DNA of 64,000 bases, taken from the NCBI GenBank assembly GCA_030584085.1, contig CP129490.1:1025511-1089510 (forward strand), given 5' to 3'. The translations under genes were made by a program, and so were the position numbers. The notes under the pieces are model-generated. The model was given only the letters and a program-made list of their open reading frames with translations. It searched no databases and was not told where the DNA came from. The stretch's first letter is position 1; each line of letters opens with the position of its first letter. The stretch comes from Melioribacteraceae bacterium. Lineage in GTDB: Bacteria; Bacteroidota; Ignavibacteria; Ignavibacteriales; Melioribacteraceae. Below, piece by piece: positions 52,506-64,000 of the stretch.

Positions 52506-54026
52506 TTAATTATTTTCTTCCTTCTTTTTGGGAGGACGATCATACATTTCAGTCATTCTCTTATAAGTTTTTATAAGATCTTCGTTTATCTGATTCCAAG
52601 TAAAACGCCAAGTCCAATTTCCGCCGAGTTTACTTGGGAAATTCATCCTTGCTTCGGTTCCCAAATTCAATACATCTTGCATCGGGATTACAACAATATC
52701 CGCTACAGAAGAATAAGCAGTTTTGATTGTTGCAAAACACATATCATCACCATAATAGTTCAGATATTCTTGAGTCCACTCGTAAATTCCGCTGCCATTT
52801 TGTTTTTCCTTTTCGAAGAATCCGCGAGTAGTATCATTATCATGTGAACCTGTATGTACTACACAATTTTTTACATGATTGTGAGGGAGGAACTTTGTTT
52901 CGTTTCCTTCACCGAATGCAAATTGCAAAATTTTAATTCCGGGGAATTCGAATTTGTCTCTGAGTGCTTCAACTTCTTTTGTTATGATTCCTAAGTCTTC
53001 TGCTATAATAGAAAGTTTACCTAATTTTTCTCTTATAGTATTAAATAATTTTTCTCCGGGAGCTTTAATCCATTCTCCGGTCATTGCAGTTTCGGCATCG
53101 CCAGGTATCGAATAGTAAGCTTCAAAGCCACGGAAATGATCAACGCGAACTATATCAACCAATTCAAATAATTTCGCGAATCTTTGAGTCCACCAAGCAA
53201 AATTATCTTTTTCCATTACGTCCCATTTGTAAAGAGGATTACCCCAAAGTTGTCCGGTAGCACTAAAATAGTCTGGTGGAACTCCTGCAACCGTTTCAAG
53301 TTTTCCTTCATCGTTTACGGTAAACTGACTTTTGTTTGCCCATAAATCGGCTGAATCGTACGCTATAAATATCGGAAGATCACCGATAACTTTTATTCCG
53401 TGAGAATGTGCATATCTTACAACAGATTTCCATTGTTTATTAAAAGTGAACTGAACAAATTTATGATATTCAACATCATCGCTTAGTTTTTTTGACCATT
53501 TCGCGACAGCATCTCCTTCACGGAAAGCAATTTCTCTTTCCCACTCTGTCCATTGAATACCACCATGATATTCTTTACATGCCATGAAAAGGGCAAAGTC
53601 ATCTAACCATTCAGTGTTATTGCTACAGAATGCTTCATAATCAGTTTTAAACCGATTCTTATTTTCTTTGAAATTGATGTATGCTTTTTTTAGAATTCCT
53701 TTCTTCCAATTAATAATAGAACCAAAATCAATATTGATCGGATCAAAAGCCTCTTTATCTTTTAGATCATCATGTGATAATAGGTGTTCTTCAATTAATA
53801 AGTCCGGACTGATTAACAGTGGATTGCCAGCAAAAGCTGAGAAACATTGATAAGGAGAATCACCATAACCTGTTGGTCCGAGAGGGAAAACCTGCCATAA
53901 TGTTTGTCCTGCTGCTTTCATGAAATCTAAAAATTTGTAAGCATCTTTACCTAAATCACCAATTCCGTAAGGTGAAGGAAGGGAAGTTGGATGCAATAAT
54001 AATCCTGCTGAACGAGTTAATTCCAT
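52506..54026 (-). CDS. malQ: 4-alpha-glucanotransferase (amylomaltase)
   Basis: MalQ rearranges alpha-1,4-glucans in glycogen and maltodextrin metabolism. The GH77 catalytic residues are visible: nucleophile Asp in VDIVRVDHFRGFEAYY near 288-304, acid/base Glu in IIAEDLGIIT near 336-346, and the stabilising Asp in THTGSHDNDTTRGFF-type context (VHTGSHDNDTTRGFF near 389). The N-terminus is the standard R-S-A-G-L-L-L-H-P-T-S-L-P. The 506-residue length is normal for the bacterial short form. It is transcribed away from nrdJ across a roughly 280-base AT-rich spacer. Confidence 0.95.
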   Translation of the reverse strand: MELTRSAGLLLHPTSLPSPYGIGDLGKDAYKFLDFMKAAGQTLWQVFPLGPTGYGDSPYQCFSAFAGNPLLISPDLLIEEHLLSHDDLKDKEAFDPINIDFGSIINWKKGILKKAYINFKENKNRFKTDYEAFCSNNTEWLDDFALFMACKEYHGGIQWTEWEREIAFREGDAVAKWSKKLSDDVEYHKFVQFTFNKQWKSVVRYAHSHGIKVIGDLPIFIAYDSADLWANKSQFTVNDEGKLETVAGVPPDYFSATGQLWGNPLYKWDVMEKDNFAWWTQRFAKLFELVDIVRVDHFRGFEAYYSIPGDAETAMTGEWIKAPGEKLFNTIREKLGKLSIIAEDLGIITKEVEALRDKFEFPGIKILQFAFGEGNETKFLPHNHVKNCVVHTGSHDNDTTRGFFEKEKQNGSGIYEWTQEYLNYYGDDMCFATIKTAYSSVADIVVIPMQDVLNLGTEARMNFPSKLGGNWTWRFTWNQINEDLIKTYKRMTEMYDRPPKKKEENN

Positions 54027-54114
54027 TTGATATCCTATTGATTTAATTAGCTTTTACGAAAATATAAATTAAGTTAGGAAATGACGACTGTACTTTTAAA
54101 TTATTTTTCTATAT

Positions 54115-54137
54115 TAGCACCCCCGTTATTTGTGCTA
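54115..54137. other. Spacer between malQ and nrdJ, with a small hairpin
   Basis: The 283 bases between malQ and nrdJ (54027-54309) are AT-rich. They hold a TAGCAC/GTGCTA hairpin (54115-54137), a run of A near 54190, and a possible 28-codon leader ORF at 54227-54313. I find no cobalamin riboswitch and no full NrdR-box pair here. Confidence 0.4.
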
Positions 54138-54309
54138 TTTGATACACTGATATATTAATTTTTTCAAAATGTCATCAATTGATTGCTTAAAAAAAAAATA
54201 ATACTTAATTTGCTTTCCACATCGAGATGAGCAAAAAGAAAAAGCTGTTAGTAAAATTTGTTTTTATAAATAATGTTTCCAAAGATTTTAGTGTAGGGAG
54301 ATTTAATAG

Positions 54310-57300
54310 ATGAAAATTACCCGTAAGTTCACCACCGCTGGTAAAGACCCTTTCGATAGTATAGAATTTGTAAAAAGAACCTCAGAGATAAAAAATCCTG
54401 ACGGATCAATAGTTTTCAAAATGGATGATGTGGTAATTCCCAAGCAATGGTCACAAGTAGCAACCGATGTGATTGCCCAAAAGTATTTTAGAAAAGCCGG
54501 TGTCCCTAAACTTCTAAAAAAAGTTAAGGAAGACAATGTGCCTAAATGGCTACAAGCCTCCGCAGCCGACACGAAGAGACTTGAAGAGTTGCCTGAAAAA
54601 GAAAGATATTCATCCGAATCTGATTCTCGTCAAGTTTTTAATCGTTTAGCCGGTACTTGGACTTACTGGGGTTGGAAAGCCAATTACTTTGATACGGAAG
54701 AAGATGCCTTATCTTTTTTTGACGAGATGAAATATATGTTAGCCCGTCAATATTGTGCGCCTAATAGTCCGCAATGGTTTAATACTGGGCTGCACTGGGC
54801 TTATGGAATTAATGGCCCGGCACAGGGACATTATTATGTGGATTATCAAACCGGTAAACTTACAAAATCCGAAGACGCTTATACACATCCTCAACCGCAT
54901 GCATGTTTTATTCAATCCGTATCAGACGATTTAGTTAATGAAGGCGGTATTATGGATTTGTGGGTTAGAGAAGCACGACTTTTCAAATATGGTTCTGGAA
55001 CTGGAAGTAATTTCTCAAATCTTCGTGGTGCCGATGAACCGCTGAGTGGTGGTGGAAAATCTTCCGGCTTGATGTCATTTTTAAAGATTGGTGATCGTTC
55101 AGCCGGTGCTATTAAATCTGGTGGAACAACACGTCGTGCAGCTAAAATGGTAACTTTAGATATCGATCATCCGGATATAGAAGAATACATTAATTGGAAA
55201 GTTATCGAGGAACAAAAAGTTGCAGCTTTAGTAGCAGGTTCAAAAGCATGTAATTATCACCTAAATAAAATAATGAAGGCATGCTATGATGAACATCCCG
55301 AGAACGACCGCTTTAGTAAAAAAACAAATAAAAGATTAAAAGAAGCAGTTCTCGAAGCACGTAAAAGCAACGTGCCGGAAAATTATATAGAACGTGTTAT
55401 TCACTTGGCAAAGCTTGGATTTAAATCAATAGAATTTCCAACTTACGATACTGATTGGAATTCGGATGCATATGCAACTGTTTCCGGTCAAAATTCAAAC
55501 AATTCTGTTCGTGTAACAAATGATTTTATGCAAGCTGTTATTAGCGATAGCGATTGGAGTTTATATTGGAGAGTAGAATTAGAAAGAGCCAAAAAAGCCG
55601 GTAGAGTTCCGAAGCCATACAAAGCTGTAAAAGCTTCCAAACTTTGGGATGATATTGCATTTTCGGCATGGTCATCAGCTGATCCCGGATTACAATATCA
55701 CACAACAATTAATGAATGGCATACGTGTCCAGCAAGTGGCGAAATCCGTGCATCAAATCCTTGTAGTGAATATATGTTTCTTGATGACACTGCTTGTAAT
55801 CTCGCATCATTAAACTTAGTGAGATTTTACAGTGACACCGAACATAAATTTGATGTTGATGCGTTTAAACATGCCGTTAGATTATGGACTGTAGTTTTAG
55901 AAGTTAGTGTACTTATGGCACAGTACCCAAGTAAAGAAATTGCTCAATTAAGTTATGATTATAGAACACTCGGTTTAGGCTATGCGAATTTAGGTTCACT
56001 TTTAATGAGACAAGGTATTCCTTACGATAGTGATCATGCTTACGCAATTGCGGGAGCTATAACTTCGATTATGCACATGGGCGCTTATGCTGCATCAGCA
56101 GAAATGGCAAAAGAACATGGTGCATTTCCCGAATTCAAAAAGAATAAAGAACATATGCTTCGTGTGTTGAGGAACCATAGAAGAGCAGCATATAATGTTC
56201 GTAAGGAAGAATATGAAGGATTATCGATTTATCCGCAAGGTATAAATCCTGAATTTTGTCCAAACAGTCTTTTAGAAGCAGCTAGAGAAGAATCGGATCG
56301 TGCGGTTGAGCTTGGCACTAAGTATGGATACAGAAATGCACAAGTTACCGTAATTGCTCCAACCGGAACTATCGGTTTGGTTATGGATTGTGATACAACG
56401 GGAATTGAACCGGACTTCTCACTTGTGAAATTCAAAAAATTAGCAGGCGGTGGATACTTCAAAATTATTAATCAATCAATTCCGCCGGCTCTTAAGAAGT
56501 TGGAATATACGGACGAGCAAATCAAAGAAATAGTTAAATATGCAAAAGGTGCCGGTACTTTAGCCGGTTGTCCGCACATTAATAAAGAAAGTTTAAGAAG
56601 CAAGGGTTTTACCGAAGATGTAATTAAGAAAATTGAGAGTATGCTTCCGTCAGTCTTCGAAATTGGATTTGCTTTTAATAAGTTCACAATCGGAGAAGAT
56701 TTCTTAATCAACACACTTGGTTTGAAAAAAGAACTTATCAATGATTTTGACTTCGATTTATTAAAAGAACTTGGTTATACAAAAGAAGAAATTGCTGCAG
56801 CTAATGATTATGTATGCGGTACAATGACAATCGAAGGAGCACCTTTCTTAAGTCCCGAGCATTATCCGGTTTTTGATTGCGCGAACAGATGCGGGAAAAA
56901 GGGAACAAGATTCATTCAGCCCGAAGCACATATAAGAATGATGGCGGTTGCACAACCATTTATTTCAGGCGCAATTTCAAAAACAATTAACCTTCCGAAC
57001 GAAGCGACCATAGAAGATATTAAATCGGCTTATTTAGAATCATGGAGATTGGGATTAAAAGCCAACGCACTTTATCGTGATGGGTCAAAATTATCCCAAC
57101 CTCTTAATTCGATGTCTGTTGAAGAAATCGAAGAAATCTTAGAGGACAAAGAAGAAAACGATTTAGTTAAAGTTGCTGAAAGAATTATTCACCGATACAT
57201 TGCTAAAAGAAGAAGACTTCCTGATCGCAGAACCGGCTACACACAGAAAGCAAAGATAAACGGTAACACAGTTTACATTCGAACCGGTGAATATGAAAAC

Positions 57301-57900
57301 GGTCAAATAGGCGAGATCTTTATAGATATGCATAAAGAAGGCGCGGCTTTTAGAAGTCTGTTAAATAATTTTGCAATTGCAATTTCACTCGGTTTGCAGC
57401 ATGGAGTTCCTCTTGAAGAATTTGTTGATGCGTTTGTATTCACTCGATTTGAACCGAGCGGCATTGTAGTAGGCAATGAAAGAATCAAGATGTCAACTTC
57501 CGTTATTGATTATATTTTCAGAGAACTTGCAGTAACCTATCTTGGAAGAACAGACCTTGCACACGTTGACGAAGAAGAATTAAAGATGAAATCGAAAAAT
57601 AAAGTTAGAACAGAAGCTGATGATTACGAGAGTGAAGAAATTATCAGCGTTAGAATGATCGAACTTGATCCAACCTCGGATGAATACGAAGACCCGAATC
57701 ACTCCGGAACTAATGGTACTAATGGAACAAACGGACGCTCCGAAAGAAGTAAAGTTCTTGCAACTCATAAACAAATGGTGAAAGCTAAAGAAAAAGGTTA
57801 CACAGGTGATATCTGTTCCGAGTGTGGTAGTATGACCATGGTTCGTAACGGAACATGTCTAAAATGTACTACATGCGGCTCTACAACCGGATGTAGTTAA
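54310..57900 (+). CDS. nrdJ: Adenosylcobalamin-dependent ribonucleotide reductase (class II)
   Basis: NrdJ reduces ribonucleotides to deoxyribonucleotides using coenzyme B12 as radical source, independent of oxygen. The 1196-residue protein has the class II/NrdJ layout: active-site NPCSE followed by [16 protein letters not shown] near 487-505, the nucleotide-binding [31 protein letters not shown] near 683-713, and a C-terminal zinc/redox tail with Cys pairs in [17 protein letters not shown]. Between core and tail is a Gly/Thr/Asn repeat linker (near 1137-1147). TAGGGAG precedes the ATG. It depends on the adenosyltransferase encoded at 10453. A terminator follows. Confidence 0.96.
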
Positions 57901-57925
57901 TAAATATCAAATAAACTTTTTTTAG

Positions 57926-57950
57926 AGGGGCTTTTCGGAGCCCCTTTTTT
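57926..57950 (+). terminator. Rho-independent terminator after nrdJ
   Basis: AGGGGCT pairs with AGCCCCT around a TTTCGG loop, followed by TTTTTT. It closes the nrdJ transcript. Confidence 0.9.
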
Positions 57951-58039
57951 GTTTACGATATTTAATAAAAGATAATTTTATTCGGTTTTTTCGTTGACTT
58001 TTGGGGCTAAAACTAATAGATTCTCAAACTTGATTAGAA

Positions 58040-58744
58040 ATGATGATTCACGATAATATTAATAGATTACAGCAGAAAATCGATGAAATTTGCAGAAAAT
58101 GCGGAAGAAATTCATCTGAAATTTTGCTGATTGCAGTTTCAAAAAACAATCCGATTTCAGCGATTGAGGAAGTTCAAAAATGTGGACTTCTTCACTTTGG
58201 AGAAAATAAAGCTCAAGAATTACGAGATAAATCGGAGATAAAATCCGAGGGAATTTTCTGGCATTTTATAGGCCATCTTCAAACTAATAAAGTGAAGTAT
58301 GCAGTCAAATCTGCTGAAATGATTCACTCAGTTGACTCAGACAAAGTTTTGGATGAAATTAACAAAAGAGCAGAAGCAGAAAATAAAATTCAGAAAATTT
58401 TGTTTGAGGTGAATACTTCTGATGAATCAAATAAATATGGTTTGAGGGATTTTAACTCTCTCAAAAAATTAGTTGATGTAGCTGATAAATCGAGAAATGT
58501 AAAACCTATTGGTTTAATGACGATGGCTCCATATACAGACGATAAAAAAATTATCCGGGACTGCTTTGTTCAACTTAGAGAATGGAAAGAAGAATTAAAC
58601 GGAATCGGTTACAACCTGACAGAATTATCAATGGGAATGACAAACGATTTTGATTTAGCTATTGAAGAAGGATCAACAATTATCCGGATTGGGACGGCAA
58701 TATTCGGAGAACGTGATTATTCACAAAAATGGAATGAACAATGA
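58040..58744 (+). CDS. YggS-family pyridoxal-phosphate homeostasis protein
   Basis: YggS/PLPBP binds PLP without known catalysis and keeps PLP and amino-acid pools in balance. The PLP Lys lies in LIAVSKNNP near 37, and GENKAQELRDKS, WHFIGHLQTNKVKYAV, MGMTNDFDLAIEEGSTIIRIGTAIFGERDY are the standard family blocks. The 234-residue length is normal. Two start ATGs are adjacent (58040, 58043). It overlaps the DivIVA-like gene by four bases (ATGA) and leads a run of genes for growth and division functions, a common YggS neighbourhood. Confidence 0.93.
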   Translation: MMIHDNINRLQQKIDEICRKCGRNSSEILLIAVSKNNPISAIEEVQKCGLLHFGENKAQELRDKSEIKSEGIFWHFIGHLQTNKVKYAVKSAEMIHSVDSDKVLDEINKRAEAENKIQKILFEVNTSDESNKYGLRDFNSLKKLVDVADKSRNVKPIGLMTMAPYTDDKKIIRDCFVQLREWKEELNGIGYNLTELSMGMTNDFDLAIEEGSTIIRIGTAIFGERDYSQKWNEQ

Positions 58745-59283
58745 AATTCACACCTTTCAGTATAAAAAATCAAGAATTCAGTCGAACAGTTCGCGGTTTT
58801 GACAGAGATGAAGTAAAAGCATACCTCGAACAATTATCTGACGAAGTTGAGAGACTTCAAGCAGAAAATTCAAAGCTGGTTGCAGAAATCGAAAAAATGA
58901 ATTCCCAAATGGAAGGTTACAGAAGAATAGAAAAAAACTTGCAATCCACTTTATTATCAGCGCAAGAATCTTCTTCAAAAGCCGTTGAATCTGCAAAAAA
59001 ACAGACTGCTCTATTGATTAAAGAATCAGAATTGAAAGCCGCACAAATTATTGAAGAAGCAAAAGAAAAAGCTAATGATATTCGTGATGCAGTTCTAAAA
59101 CTACGTGAAGAAAAAAACTTACTCGTAGCAAAATTACGAGCAATGGTAGATACTCAATCACACCTGCTTGAATCAAGTTTTAGGGAAAGAATAATTGAGG
59201 AAACCGAAGTTGATTTTACTTCCGCAAAAAAGGATATAGATTCTAAAATTAATGCTGATGAAATATTGGAGAAACTCTTATGA
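58741..59283 (+). CDS. DivIVA-domain protein
   Basis: DivIVA-family proteins bind curved membranes and position the division or growth machinery. The N-terminal membrane-binding motif (MKFTPFSIKNQEFSRTVRGFDRDEVKAYLEQLSDEVERL) is the DivIVA domain. It is followed by a long coiled coil (about 35-150, e.g. KKQTALLIKESELKAAQIIEEAKEKANDIRDAVLKLREEKNLL). The 180-residue length is normal. It sits between yggS and the PNP gene, each overlapping by four bases, so translation is coupled. In FCB-group bacteria DivIVA homologues are less usual than in Firmicutes and Actinobacteria. Confidence 0.85.
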   Translation: MKFTPFSIKNQEFSRTVRGFDRDEVKAYLEQLSDEVERLQAENSKLVAEIEKMNSQMEGYRRIEKNLQSTLLSAQESSSKAVESAKKQTALLIKESELKAAQIIEEAKEKANDIRDAVLKLREEKNLLVAKLRAMVDTQSHLLESSFRERIIEETEVDFTSAKKDIDSKINADEILEKLL

Positions 59284-60101
59284 GTAAGTTGAAAGAAATG
59301 ATTAATGAAACATTAGAAGTAATCCGTAAACACACAAAAGATGAGTATGAAATCGGAATTATTCTCGGAACCGGACTTGGCGGATTAGTTAAGGAAATTA
59401 AAATTGATCACGAAATTGAATACGGTGATTTACCACATTTTCCTATTTCTACAGTTGAGTCTCACCATGGTAAACTGATCTTTGGATCGATTGGAAATAA
59501 AAAAGTTGTTGCTATGCAAGGAAGATTTCATTACTACGAAGGTTATACGATGAAGCAAATTACATATCCCGTAAGAGTAATGAAATTTCTTGGTGTTAAA
59601 ACTTTGCTTGTATCAAACGCATGCGGTGGGATGAATCCGATTTACAAACGTGGTGATGTGATGCTGATGCTCGATCATATAAATCTACTTGGTGATAATC
59701 CGTTGATTGGACCTAATGAAGATGATCTTGGTCCAAGATTCCCCGACATGAGTGAACCATATAATTTGGAACTAATTGAATTAGCAGAACAAGTTGCTCT
59801 TGAAAATAAGATCAAACTCCACAAAGGAGTTTACGTTGCTGTTCCGGGTCCAAACTTAGAAACCAAAGCCGAATATAGATTTTTGAGAGGAATTGGTGCT
59901 GATGTTGTAGGAATGTCAACAATTCCGGAAAATATAGTTGCCAATCACATGGGAATGAGGGTTTTAGGTTTCAGCATTATAACAGATGAGTGTTTCCCGG
60001 ATTCCTTAAAAGCAGTTAATGTTGAAGAAATAATTGCCGCCGCGATGGAAGCAGAACCGAAAATGACAAAAATTATGAAGGAAGTTATAAACAAACTATG
60101 A
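59280..60101 (+). CDS. Purine-nucleoside phosphorylase (trimeric PNP/MTAP family)
   Basis: PNP splits inosine and guanosine to base and ribose-1-phosphate for purine salvage. The motifs are: phosphate site IILGTGLGGLVKEI near 28 and ESHHGKLIFG near 61, GRFHYYEGYTMKQITYPVRVMKFLGVKTLLVSNACGGMN near 81-120, and the base-binding Glu in VAVPGPNLETKAEYRFLRGIGADVVGMSTIPENIVANHMGMRV. The 273-residue length fits the trimeric punA-like group. Both ends overlap neighbours in ATGA. The substrate range (guanosine/inosine versus methylthioadenosine) is inferred from family only. Confidence 0.92.
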   Translation: MSKLKEMINETLEVIRKHTKDEYEIGIILGTGLGGLVKEIKIDHEIEYGDLPHFPISTVESHHGKLIFGSIGNKKVVAMQGRFHYYEGYTMKQITYPVRVMKFLGVKTLLVSNACGGMNPIYKRGDVMLMLDHINLLGDNPLIGPNEDDLGPRFPDMSEPYNLELIELAEQVALENKIKLHKGVYVAVPGPNLETKAEYRFLRGIGADVVGMSTIPENIVANHMGMRVLGFSIITDECFPDSLKAVNVEEIIAAAMEAEPKMTKIMKEVINKL

Positions 60102-60709
60102 TAAACAAATTTGTGTATAAATACGCTACAGCAGTACTACTTGGATTGATAATATTTAGCTCGAATTTTCTCAGTCCAAAGCTATTTACCGGTGAAATTT
60201 TAAACTTTGCCGTCTGGTTTATTCTTTCTATTTTTGCCTTCTCTTGTGGCTGGATCATTGATAAAACACTAGGTTGGAGCCATGGCGGTAAATTAGTCTT
60301 TGCTGTTATTGTTGCTACTTCTGTAATGAGTTTGTTCCTCGTAACATTCTTCAGAAGTTATTTCGGTATCAATGATTATTTGACGGAAAACTTCATTCTC
60401 TTTTCACTCCGTAATGTAATGCTGGGTGTAATGGGAATTTTTGGATTAGCTGTTGCCGAATTGATCGCTGTCCAAAAGGAAATGGAAAATCTAAAACATC
60501 AAGTTCAGTTAAATAGAAAAATTGCCGAAGATGCCGAAAGAGAAGCACAGATAATTATTCGTGAAGCAAAATCCAAAGCAGATAGTCTTATGGTTGAAGC
60601 GGAACGCGAATCGGTTGAGATGATTAACCGTAAAAAAGAAATAGAAATGCAGTTAAAAGAATTTTTAAGAACGGAAAAAGAATTAATAAAAAAATACGAA
60701 GCTGACTAA
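60098..60709 (+). CDS. Membrane protein with C-terminal coiled coil
   Basis: This is a 203-residue protein of no recognised family. It has about four membrane helices: roughly 8-22, 35-55, 66-88 and 104-124. A charged, coiled-coil tail follows (about 128-203: EMENLKHQVQLNRKIAEDAEREAQIIIREAKSKADSLMVEAERESVEMI). The tail resembles the DivIVA-like coiled coil of the gene two positions upstream. It overlaps PNP by four bases and lies 29 bases before ileS. A role with the DivIVA-like protein at the membrane is an inference from position and shape. Confidence 0.6.
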   Translation: MINKFVYKYATAVLLGLIIFSSNFLSPKLFTGEILNFAVWFILSIFAFSCGWIIDKTLGWSHGGKLVFAVIVATSVMSLFLVTFFRSYFGINDYLTENFILFSLRNVMLGVMGIFGLAVAELIAVQKEMENLKHQVQLNRKIAEDAEREAQIIIREAKSKADSLMVEAERESVEMINRKKEIEMQLKEFLRTEKELIKKYEAD

Positions 60710-60738
60710 TCCACTAACTGAAAATTACGGTAATAATA

Positions 60739-63700
60739 ATGTTCAAGCAGTACGAAGGAAATATTTCATATCCCAAAATTGAAGAAGAAATTTTAAAGTT
60801 CTGGAAAGAAAAACAAATTTTTGAAAAATCAATTTCTACTAGAGACGAAAACAAACCATTTACCTTTTACGAAGGTCCGCCCACGGCAAACGGTAAACCC
60901 GGCATCCACCATGTTATGGCAAGAGTTCTTAAAGATTTAGTATGCCGTTATAAAACTCTACAAGGATATCACGTTAACAGAAAAGCCGGTTGGGATACTC
61001 ATGGATTACCTGTTGAAATCGAAGTTGAAAAATCTCTCGGCATAAAAAGTAAAAGTGAAATTCCCGTATACGGAATTGCAAAATATAATGCAGCATGTAA
61101 AGATTCTGTTTTCACTTATCTCGATCTTTGGGAAAAGATGACTACTCGAATGGGTTATTGGGTTAATCTTGATGATGCATATGTTACATGTACAAATAAC
61201 TATATTGAATCGGTTTGGTGGGCTTTAAAAACTCTGTTTGAGAAGGGACTCATCTATAAGGATTATAAAATTGTTCCTCAAGATCCTAAGGCGGAAACAC
61301 CGCTTTCATCGCATGAATTGGCTTTAGGTTATCGGGAAACCAAGGATCCTTCTGTTTATGTTGTGATGAAAATAAAAGAATCCGATTTGACGAAAGAAGG
61401 AGATACATTTTTCTTAGTTTGGACAACAACTCCTTGGACTTTAATCTCAAACGTTGGTTTAGCCGTCGGACCGGAAATAGACTATGTAAAAATTAAAACC
61501 GATGACGCATATCTAATCCTTGCAAAAGAAAGATTAGAAGTTATCAGAAATGAATATGAAATAATTTCCGAGTACAAAGGAAAAGATTTAGCCGGACAAG
61601 AATACGAACAATTGTTCAACTATGTGAAGTATGAAAAGAAAGCTTGTTTTGTAGTTGAAGCTGATTTTGTAAGTACAGAAGATGGTTCCGGAATAGTTCA
61701 CATTGCACCCGCATTTGGTGCGGATGACTATGAAATTTCTAAAAAATATGATCTTCCGTTTGCGCAGCCTGTAGATAGAGGAGGAAGATTTACTGCAGAA
61801 GTAACAGACTTTGTCGGGCAGTTTGTAAAAGATGCTGATGAAGGTATTATCAGAATGTTGAGAGAACGCGGTCAACTTTATAAGAAAGAAACCATAATTC
61901 ACTCTTATCCCTTCAGTTGGAGATTTGATAACGTTCCCATAATCTACTATGCCCGTGAATCATGGTTTATCAGAACAACACAAATTGCTGATCGAATGGT
62001 TGAACTAAATAAAACAATCGGCTGGCATCCGCCGGAAGTTGGAAGCGGAAGATTCGGTAATTGGTTGGATGAAAATAAAGATTGGGCTTTATCGCGTGAT
62101 AGATTCTGGGCTACGCCTTTACCAATTTGGGTAAGTGAAGACAGTGATATGTTTGCTATCGGCAGTATTGCTGAATTGAAGGAAGGTTATATTGAAAGAG
62201 ACGGAAAGAAAATTAAAGTTGCCGATTTAAAAGAAGAAGAAATCGACCTACACAGACCGTTTGTTGATGATATTAAGTTTGAGAGAAACGGAAAGATTTA
62301 TACTCGAACTCCTGAACTCATTGATGTCTGGTTTGATTCCGGTGCAATGCCGTTTGCGCAGTATCATTATCCGTTTGAAAATAAAGAATTGTTTGAAAAG
62401 AATTATCCCGCCGATTTTATCTGCGAAGGTATTGATCAAACACGAGGATGGTTCTATACACTTCATGCAATTGGAACTATGTTATTCGATAATGTTGCAT
62501 ACAAGAATCTTATAGTAAACGAATTGATTCTTGATAAAAACGGAATGAAGATGTCTAAATCAAAAGGCAATACGGTTGATCCTTTTGAATTATTCGATAA
62601 ATACGGAGCCGACGCTACTCGTTGGTATATGGTTACTACAAGTCCGCCTTGGAAACCCACATTATTCGATGAAGAGGGTATTGTTGAAGTTCAGCGTAAG
62701 TTTTTCGGAACTCTACTTAACACATATTCCTTCTTTGCACTATATGCAAACATCGACAAGTTTGATTTCAAAGAGGAAATAATTCCTTATGAAAAACGAC
62801 CGGAAATTGATCGTTGGATAATTTCAAAGCTTGGCACTTTAGTAAAAGATTTTGAAGAGTACATGAACAATTACGATGTAACAAAAGCCGCACGTGAAGT
62901 TTCCGAATTTACAATTGATCAATTATCAAATTGGTATGTTAGGAGAAGCAGACGACGTTTCTGGAAATCGGAAATGAACGAAAATAAACTTTCGGCATAT
63001 CAAACTTTATATGAATGCTTGAACACAGTTGTAAAACTAGCTTCACCGTTTGCTCCATTCTTGACTGAAGAAATTTACAACAACTTGAATAAGGCGACCG
63101 GAAAAGAAGAATTCGAATCTGTTCATTTAGTTCAGTTCCCAAAAGTCAATTATCATGATGAAGACTTAGAACTAAAGATGGATGTCGCACAAAAAGTAGT
63201 TTATATAACGAGATCAATGCGTGCAAAAAATAATTTGAAAGTTCGTCAGCCATTAAAAAAGATTCTGGTTTCGGTTTCACCATCAAAACGTGAAGCAGTA
63301 GAAAGAATGAAAGATGTTATATTGGAAGAAGTAAACATTAAAGAACTTCAAGTTTTAGAAGATGATTCCGGAATTGTCAATAAATCTGCCAAAGCAAATT
63401 TCAAATCGCTTGGTCCAAAATATGGCAAACTGATGAAATCGCTTGCTGCGGAAATTATTAAATTCAGTAAGGATGACATCGCAAAACTTGAGAGAGAAAA
63501 TAGCTTTAAAGTTACTATCGATGAAAACGAAATTAATCTTACTTTAGAAGATGTCGAAATTATAAGTACCGAAATTGAAGGTTGGTTGGTTGAAAGCGAA
63601 GAAGGTGTAACCGTTGGTATTGATACTGAATTAACTGAGGATTTAATTGCCGAAGGTTATGCGAGAGAATTTGTCAACCGGGTTCAAAACATGCGTAAAG

Positions 63701-63906
63701 ACGCTGATTTTGACGTAATTGACAAAATCCGAATTTTCTATGAATCTGACGAAAAATTAATTAAATATATAAGTCGATTTTCAGAATACATAACAAGCGA
63801 AACTTTAGCTGATGAATTAACTTCGGGTACTTCTTCCAACGGGTACCTTGAAAATTGGGACATTGGCGAATTCAGTTGCAAAATTTCAATTGAAAAAAGC
63901 CGTTAA
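60739..63906 (+). CDS. ileS: Isoleucyl-tRNA synthetase, type 2 (swapped GXHH motif)
   Basis: IleS charges tRNA-Ile and edits valine. The 1055-residue protein has the class I core: YEGPPTANGKPGIHHVMAR at the N-terminus (signature at 55-58), the CP1 editing domain (about 190-390, with WTTTPWTL), the KMSKSKG motif near 604 (NGMKMSKSKG), and a tRNA-binding C-terminus without the zinc-finger Cys cluster of type 1 enzymes. The signature reads G-I-H-H instead of H-x-G-H, the swapped form reported in some type 2 enzymes with mupirocin hyper-resistance. The length also fits type 2. A possible dksA-like gene follows. Confidence 0.97.
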   Translation: MFKQYEGNISYPKIEEEILKFWKEKQIFEKSISTRDENKPFTFYEGPPTANGKPGIHHVMARVLKDLVCRYKTLQGYHVNRKAGWDTHGLPVEIEVEKSLGIKSKSEIPVYGIAKYNAACKDSVFTYLDLWEKMTTRMGYWVNLDDAYVTCTNNYIESVWWALKTLFEKGLIYKDYKIVPQDPKAETPLSSHELALGYRETKDPSVYVVMKIKESDLTKEGDTFFLVWTTTPWTLISNVGLAVGPEIDYVKIKTDDAYLILAKERLEVIRNEYEIISEYKGKDLAGQEYEQLFNYVKYEKKACFVVEADFVSTEDGSGIVHIAPAFGADDYEISKKYDLPFAQPVDRGGRFTAEVTDFVGQFVKDADEGIIRMLRERGQLYKKETIIHSYPFSWRFDNVPIIYYARESWFIRTTQIADRMVELNKTIGWHPPEVGSGRFGNWLDENKDWALSRDRFWATPLPIWVSEDSDMFAIGSIAELKEGYIERDGKKIKVADLKEEEIDLHRPFVDDIKFERNGKIYTRTPELIDVWFDSGAMPFAQYHYPFENKELFEKNYPADFICEGIDQTRGWFYTLHAIGTMLFDNVAYKNLIVNELILDKNGMKMSKSKGNTVDPFELFDKYGADATRWYMVTTSPPWKPTLFDEEGIVEVQRKFFGTLLNTYSFFALYANIDKFDFKEEIIPYEKRPEIDRWIISKLGTLVKDFEEYMNNYDVTKAAREVSEFTIDQLSNWYVRRSRRRFWKSEMNENKLSAYQTLYECLNTVVKLASPFAPFLTEEIYNNLNKATGKEEFESVHLVQFPKVNYHDEDLELKMDVAQKVVYITRSMRAKNNLKVRQPLKKILVSVSPSKREAVERMKDVILEEVNIKELQVLEDDSGIVNKSAKANFKSLGPKYGKLMKSLAAEIIKFSKDDIAKLERENSFKVTIDENEINLTLEDVEIISTEIEGWLVESEEGVTVGIDTELTEDLIAEGYAREFVNRVQNMRKDADFDVIDKIRIFYESDEKLIKYISRFSEYITSETLADELTSGTSSNGYLENWDIGEFSCKISIEKSR

Positions 63907-63931
63907 TAAGTTCAGCAAGGGAGGATAAATA

Positions 63932-64000
63932 ATGGGAATGGCAAAAAAAACAGTTAAGAAATCCACGGCGGCTGCTAAAACTACCACAAAGAAAAAAGCT
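63932..64000 (+). CDS. N-terminus of a Lys/Ala-rich protein, cut by the window edge
   Basis: An open frame starts at ATG 63932 behind GGGAGG (63919-63924) and runs off the window after 23 codons. The visible residues are MGMAKKTVKKSTAAAKTTTK and more Lys/Ala. A Lys/Ala-rich tail of this type before a TraR/DksA zinc-finger regulator downstream of ileS is common in related bacteria, but this is inference; the remainder is not in the window. Confidence 0.5.
   Translation, partial: MGMAKKTVKKSTAAAKTTTKKKA

Follow-up and report, generated by a model that had tools for sequence, protein, structure and literature searches.

The closest described systems to the gene analysed here are type 2 isoleucyl-tRNA synthetases (IleRS2) in which the first and third residues of the class I signature HXGH are exchanged, such as those of Deinococcus radiodurans (ALHH) and Streptomyces griseus. 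We take PMC4861432, cited below, to be Cvetesic et al. 2016. The text of Brkic et al. 2023 (PMC10485003) reports a survey of 379 IleRS, in which IleRS2 comprised 86 G/AXHH and 77 HXGH enzymes whilst the exchange occurred in no type 1 enzyme (IleRS1). DrIleRS2, the D. radiodurans enzyme, has a mupirocin Ki of 6600 uM, which falls to 8.1 uM with HVGH. The reverse swap to GXHH raised the Ki of TtIleRS2 from 0.20 to 35 uM and that of PmIleRS2 from 1.08 to 460 uM, and HXGH to GXHH swaps carried a kcat or Km penalty of up to 10-fold (PMC10485003). In the account given there, the third His is tolerated because the HIGH motif of IleRS2 is shifted, and hyper-resistance results from this His clashing with mupirocin. 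Further marks of the G/AXHH class are a mupirocin Ki in the mM range with activity retained, and a displaced tip of helix alpha-1 that makes room for the third His. Activation normally depends on the first His of HXGH, one natural non-canonical IleRS2 is fully active, and antibiotic pressure is proposed as the cause of the exchange (PMC10485003). S. griseus IleRS2, with the same motif, is reported to have a mupirocin Ki of 10 mM and to lack tRNA-dependent pre-transfer editing (PMC4861432). Across the two papers, Ki among IleRS2 ranges from 0.2 uM to mM.

The exchange in a subset of IleRS2, its tie to extreme mupirocin resistance and its structural basis are thus already in print for other enzymes (PMC10485003), and the first two had been correctly stated in the initial annotation of our locus. 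The local finding is ordinary in that motif, resistance and structural reason are published. What we add is the extent of the exchange across a phylum. The word "Bacteroidetes" is absent from the text of PMC10485003. Because the taxa stand in its Figure 2 and supplements, we do not claim the phylum state as unpublished.

The window ileS and its signatures

The window, a 64,000-nucleotide stretch of the genome of a Melioribacteraceae bacterium, carries the ileS gene listed in Table 1. The in-frame codons GGC ATC CAC CAT encode Gly55-Ile56-His57-His58 (sequence context GPPTANGKPGIHHVMAR). These residues align without a gap to PHVGH of the solved IleRS chains 8c8u and 8c8v and to PGVHH of 8c8w. 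Codons, frame and alignment agree on the swap from HXGH to GXHH that had been read from the letters, and KMSKS is intact, as had also been proposed. The GIHH motif is neither chance nor a sequencing error, since the same swap was found in 119/119 phylum genomes with the motif read. The WTTTPWTL stretch is the signature of the CP1 editing domain.

Table 1. Features of the ileS region (positions in the window)
Feature	Position	Strand	Basis
ileS, assigned to IleRS2, 1055 aa	60739..63906	+	TIGR00392, 967 bits; Pfam PF00133, PF08264, DUF5915
Class I signature G55-I56-H57-H58 (GXHH for HXGH)	60901..60912	+	gap-free alignment with solved chains
WTTTPWTL, threonine-rich, intact	61420..61443	+	sequence letters, alignment
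KMSKS, residues 604-608, second class I signature, unaltered	62548..62562	+	sequence letters
DUF5915, C-terminal domain, residues 858-1053	63310..63897	+	Pfam
TraR/DksA-like gene, start	63932..64000	+	letters and annotated counterparts; no Pfam match at E 1e-5

The protein scores well above the curated cut-off of 621.4 bits for TIGR00392 (isoleucine--tRNA ligase). Pfam recognised the class I core (PF00133), the anticodon domain (PF08264) and, at the C-terminus, DUF5915 in place of a zinc finger; no zinc-finger family matched at E 1e-5, in line with the absence of a C-terminal Cys cluster noted initially. The best solved chain was 8c8w at 925 bits. The type 1 IleRS of S. aureus, 1ffy, reached 365, and 8c9e and 8c9f, whose type is itself assigned by inference, reached 369-377. 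With the window protein as query, type 1 rows scored 282-314 bits and type 2 rows at least 450 bits, and the four type 1 rows separated from all others with a support of 0.997 in a 251-row FastTree. Thr stands at the position equivalent to Tyr59 and HYPFE lies at 543. Both are type 2 elements under the published definition (no C-terminal Cys4 cluster, no Tyr59 equivalent, HYPFE; PMC4861432). Alignment with known type 1 and type 2 enzymes thus sorts the window protein with type 2, as first suggested, and on these comparisons we class it as an IleRS2. With Gly first and His third in the signature, it fits the G/AXHH class at the sequence level.

Judged from its aligned letters and PMC10485003, chain 8c8w is the GVHH mutant of Priestia megaterium IleRS2. 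It shares the motif of the window IleRS, but there the motif is laboratory-made in an enzyme that is naturally HVGH (PMC10485003), whereas that of the window is natural.

The window's genome is a single contig of 3,742,376 bases (99.35% complete), in which one gene alone, the window ileS, passes the TIGR00392 cut-off. A second ileS was considered and rejected: the remaining class I matches are ValRS, above its own cut-off, and LeuRS, MetRS, ArgRS and CysRS, identified from their letters. The apparent sole ileS of the initial annotation thus withstood a genome-wide search. Because it is the sole copy, we infer that the window IleRS is fully active. A misread or non-functional site, in which a pseudo-synthetase stands here and another IleRS does the work, has a negligible probability. 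The first His of HXGH, normally required for activation (PMC10485003), is indeed missing. However, the complete genome holds no second ileS, the frame, KMSKS and the editing signature are intact, GXHH is kept in all 119 genomes read, and one natural non-canonical IleRS is described as fully active (PMC10485003).

In the 392-genome phylum search described below, only two candidates were scored per genome, and other members of the phylum may carry a second ileS. In the search of 58 relatives and its follow-up, more or all candidates per genome were scored. A second match of 162 bits in the relative G086, considered as a possible type 1 IleRS, was rejected once its letters were read as ValRS.

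Downstream, lspA (PF01252) follows the TraR/DksA-like gene beyond the window end, giving the order ileS-dksA-lspA. The same order is found in the three named Bacteroidota records whose neighbours were annotated. A crude synteny regex over 71 loci found lspA-like neighbours at 41/71 and dksA-like ones at 4/71, and is not counted as evidence. Four genes lie directly upstream of ileS on the + strand (58040-60709): Ala_racemase_N (yggS-like), DivIVA, a PNP_UDP_1 phosphorylase and one without a Pfam match at E 1e-5. A search for an RNA element upstream of ileS, covering 54000 to 64000, gave no match in Rfam at gathering scores.

Extent of the exchange across Bacteroidota

An IleRS match was found in 57 of the 58 relatives searched and in 391 of 392 genomes across the phylum. 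The motif was read in part of the matched genomes, as 120 deduplicated rows from 119 genomes. GxHH occurred in 119 of these rows. The other, L117, ends short of the motif; its N-terminal half lies on another contig and is counted among the 119 GxHH rows. GxHH was thus present in every phylum genome with the motif read (119/119), and these genomes span 52 of the 57 family codes encountered. In G214, a fragment of 73 residues at the end of a contig is also GxHH. In G005 (94% complete, 40 contigs) no IleRS was found and the only match was ValRS-like. The swap is the rule in every phylum genome read and is not peculiar to the source organism.

Two of the family codes include proteins that match the IleRS of Bacteroides finegoldii at 91% identity and that of Parabacteroides distasonis at 89%, which bears out the placement of the organism as FCB-type. 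By these identities the phylum of the window is Bacteroidota in the GTDB sense. Among ten named records with the motif read, part of 198 plasmid records with a match, all six from Bacteroidota (Parabacteroides, Bacteroides, Phocaeicola, two Prevotella and Riemerella) carry GIHH, as in the window. Their proteins are approximately 41-47% identical to the window protein, with longer frames of 1144-1227 aa stop to stop. All six are filed as plasmids, but the three annotated ones show ordinary chromosomal genes around ileS and may be chromosome pieces. Elsewhere among the named records, the clostridial Acetoanaerobium has GIHH, Paenibacillus HIGH and Sutcliffiella HAGH.

Matches in other phyla were collected best-first against the window protein, so their counts are biased to its kind. 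The phylum of the Streptomyces genome G426 gave a match in 83/118 genomes at the threshold used, and the 67 rows read comprised 49 GxHH, 16 HxGH, 1 HxGN and 1 AxHT. In the phylum of the Clostridiales genome G424, 62/199 genomes had a match, with 21 GxHH and 37 HxGH among 58 rows read.

In the 251-row FastTree the phylum rows formed one group (118 rows, 0.996), which adjoins the 21 clostridial GxHH rows (1.0). The window IleRS falls in this Bacteroidota group, separate, here and in the tree described next, from the actinobacterial GXHH rows including the Streptomyces row L145. A 62-row IQ-TREE, a quick search in which long branches were flagged, again recovered the phylum as one group (14 rows, 100) but left its sister fork open. 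At least four motif changes were required on this tree, and a single clade of GXHH rows outside the deep actinobacterial branch described below was not rejected (p-AU 0.164). We accordingly assert neither how often the exchange arose nor in which direction it went. One row, L291 (G480:C28), has HIGH within the actinobacterial GXHH group, with Thr at the equivalent of position 61, the residue that the majority of type 2 HXGH rows have there. From its position, this HIGH is likely a natural reversion.

Positions 55 and 57 alone separate GXHH from HXGH rows perfectly. At position 61, the GXHH rows (n=190) have A in 139, S in 46, G in 4 and P in 1, and T is present in 44/55 type 2 HXGH rows. Position 61 was tried as a compensating residue and set aside: three independent pairs on supported branches, with none opposed, were not significant. 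No fixed compensating residue for the swap was found among the aligned rows.

We also scanned 84,980 genomes with a DNA pattern for an intermediate HXHH IleRS. The scan gave 14 matches, none with IleRS letters around it. In a control, putting the true motif into an otherwise unchanged frame recovered 183/189 GXHH and 49/55 HXGH type 2 genes of our set (232/244). The pattern is exact: a Pro must precede the motif, and PPx[AV] must end in Ala or Val. Contigs below 3,000 bases are not part of the collection. Unusual frames, including the deep actinobacterial clade, would escape the pattern.

Predicted mupirocin resistance and the age of the exchange

We are confident that the window ileS is the organism's housekeeping IleRS2 in a natural GXHH form that should bind mupirocin weakly, inherited with the phylum and not an acquired resistance gene. 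In this explanation the bulky third His would clash with mupirocin, so that the drug would be bound only weakly. The GXHH state would have been handed down from an ancestor within or of Bacteroidota. By analogy, mupirocin binding is probably in the millimolar range, and the organism would be intrinsically resistant at the target. For mechanism and resistance alike we rely on what has been published for other IleRS2 (PMC10485003). The exact Ki of the window enzyme is not readable from the motif and other residues matter, because the GXHH mutants made in the laboratory attain no more than 35 and 460 uM and Ki varies among IleRS2. A search of literature listings found no mupirocin MIC data for Bacteroides.

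The plasmid MupA of staphylococci is a related IleRS, approximately 42% identical to the window protein. The staphylococcal copy read has a canonical HTGH and is a plasmid gene, in contrast to the GIHH of the window IleRS. Against the curated models the window protein scored 867 bits for MupA and 848 bits for MupB, both below the cut-off of 1900. MupA and MupB are extra copies beside another ileS, whereas the window ileS is the sole copy. That the motif was acquired, or selected recently, as a mupirocin-resistance trait of this organism, like plasmid mupA, is very improbable. The motif does confer hyper-resistance in other IleRS2, and antibiotic pressure is the cause favoured in the text of PMC10485003. 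Yet GXHH is found in every phylum genome read, the gene trees hold the phylum together, ileS stands in the gene order shared with the three annotated Bacteroidota records, and the MupA read is canonical. On these grounds the window ileS is an ancestral housekeeping form and no resistance gene gained by acquisition. Resistome catalogues may be listing a housekeeping gene when they give IleRS as a mupirocin determinant for bacteria of this kind. One example is a table in an Ornithobacterium genome paper (PMC10835994).

Because the state is common to the phylum, antibiotic selection in the window's lineage is only a possible cause. GXHH could instead be an old catalytic configuration whose fixation had nothing to do with mupirocin and came, for example, from drift and lock-in, a changed editing balance or another natural inhibitor. 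This departs from the inherited housekeeping explanation in cause alone, and we hold it as a tentative possibility; an old lock-in with resistance as a by-product fits equally well. In its favour, the state is present in all members read, including the gut, oral and animal-associated Bacteroides, Parabacteroides, Prevotella and Riemerella. The HXHH intermediate was not found among IleRS at the sensitivity of our scan, and changes on the tree are few (at least four among 62 rows). The S. griseus enzyme, moreover, lacks tRNA-dependent pre-transfer editing (PMC4861432). Against it, the HIGH of L291 inside the actinobacterial GXHH group indicates that lock-in is not absolute, and the authors of PMC10485003 favour antibiotic pressure.

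With similar reserve, as an idea we find somewhat less probable than its negation, the exchange may have been present in the translation machinery of Bacteroidota from its founding, as a state that defines the phylum, and not be an antibiotic adaptation. If so, intrinsic hyper-resistance to mupirocin at the target would extend to all of the phylum, commensals of gut and mouth included. HXGH and GXHH would then stand apart as two solutions, and the HXHH step between them would be absent in living IleRS within the sensitivity of the scan. The phylum-wide reading offers a testable prediction, target-level mupirocin hyper-resistance as a Bacteroidota rule, and would place a constraint on change in the most conserved class I motif.

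Other altered class I signatures

A deep branch of Actinomycetota IleRS (L239, L240, L241; L331-L336; L359-L380) has both class I signatures altered. Its first motif reads GVHH, AVHT or GVHT, and KMSKS is replaced by DMHYS, EMHYS, EMHGS, xMHKS and similar forms. In the class of G508, deep-branch IleRS was found in 6/24 genomes. Five have GVHH with DMHYS or EMHYS; the sixth, L336, has an unambiguous GVHH but a KMSKS region that is not reliably readable. The class of G522 yielded members in 22/119 genomes when at least 55% identity was required. All 22 have xMHxS for KMSKS, with the first Lys lost in all and the second kept (MHKS) in 6. Where the sequence extends to the first motif (21 members), it reads AVHT, GVHT, GVHH or close forms. 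The deep-branch IleRS was the only ileS match (E 1e-100) in the three genomes checked; in one of these, G522, it scores 620 bits, just below the TIGR00392 cut-off of 621.4. In the passages of PMC10485003 considered, an altered KMSKS is unmentioned, and the change may already be published.

The fourth signature residue is changed in three other IleRS: L146 (HHGN, an Acidimicrobiaceae MAG), L228 (HFGN, actinobacterial) and L149 (HLGT, Haloferax marisrubri). The actinobacterial genome G856 has two full-length IleRS matches (C1:766512-769526 and 1668964-1672035). In the window's own genome, the ValRS L314 (C1:3545764-3548301) has T-L-G-H for H-x-G-H. The ValRS motif was read in 30 of 38 matched genomes, own and relatives (L301-L330), as 12 TxGH and 18 HxGH; the residue that opens the signature is thus variable inside a single order.
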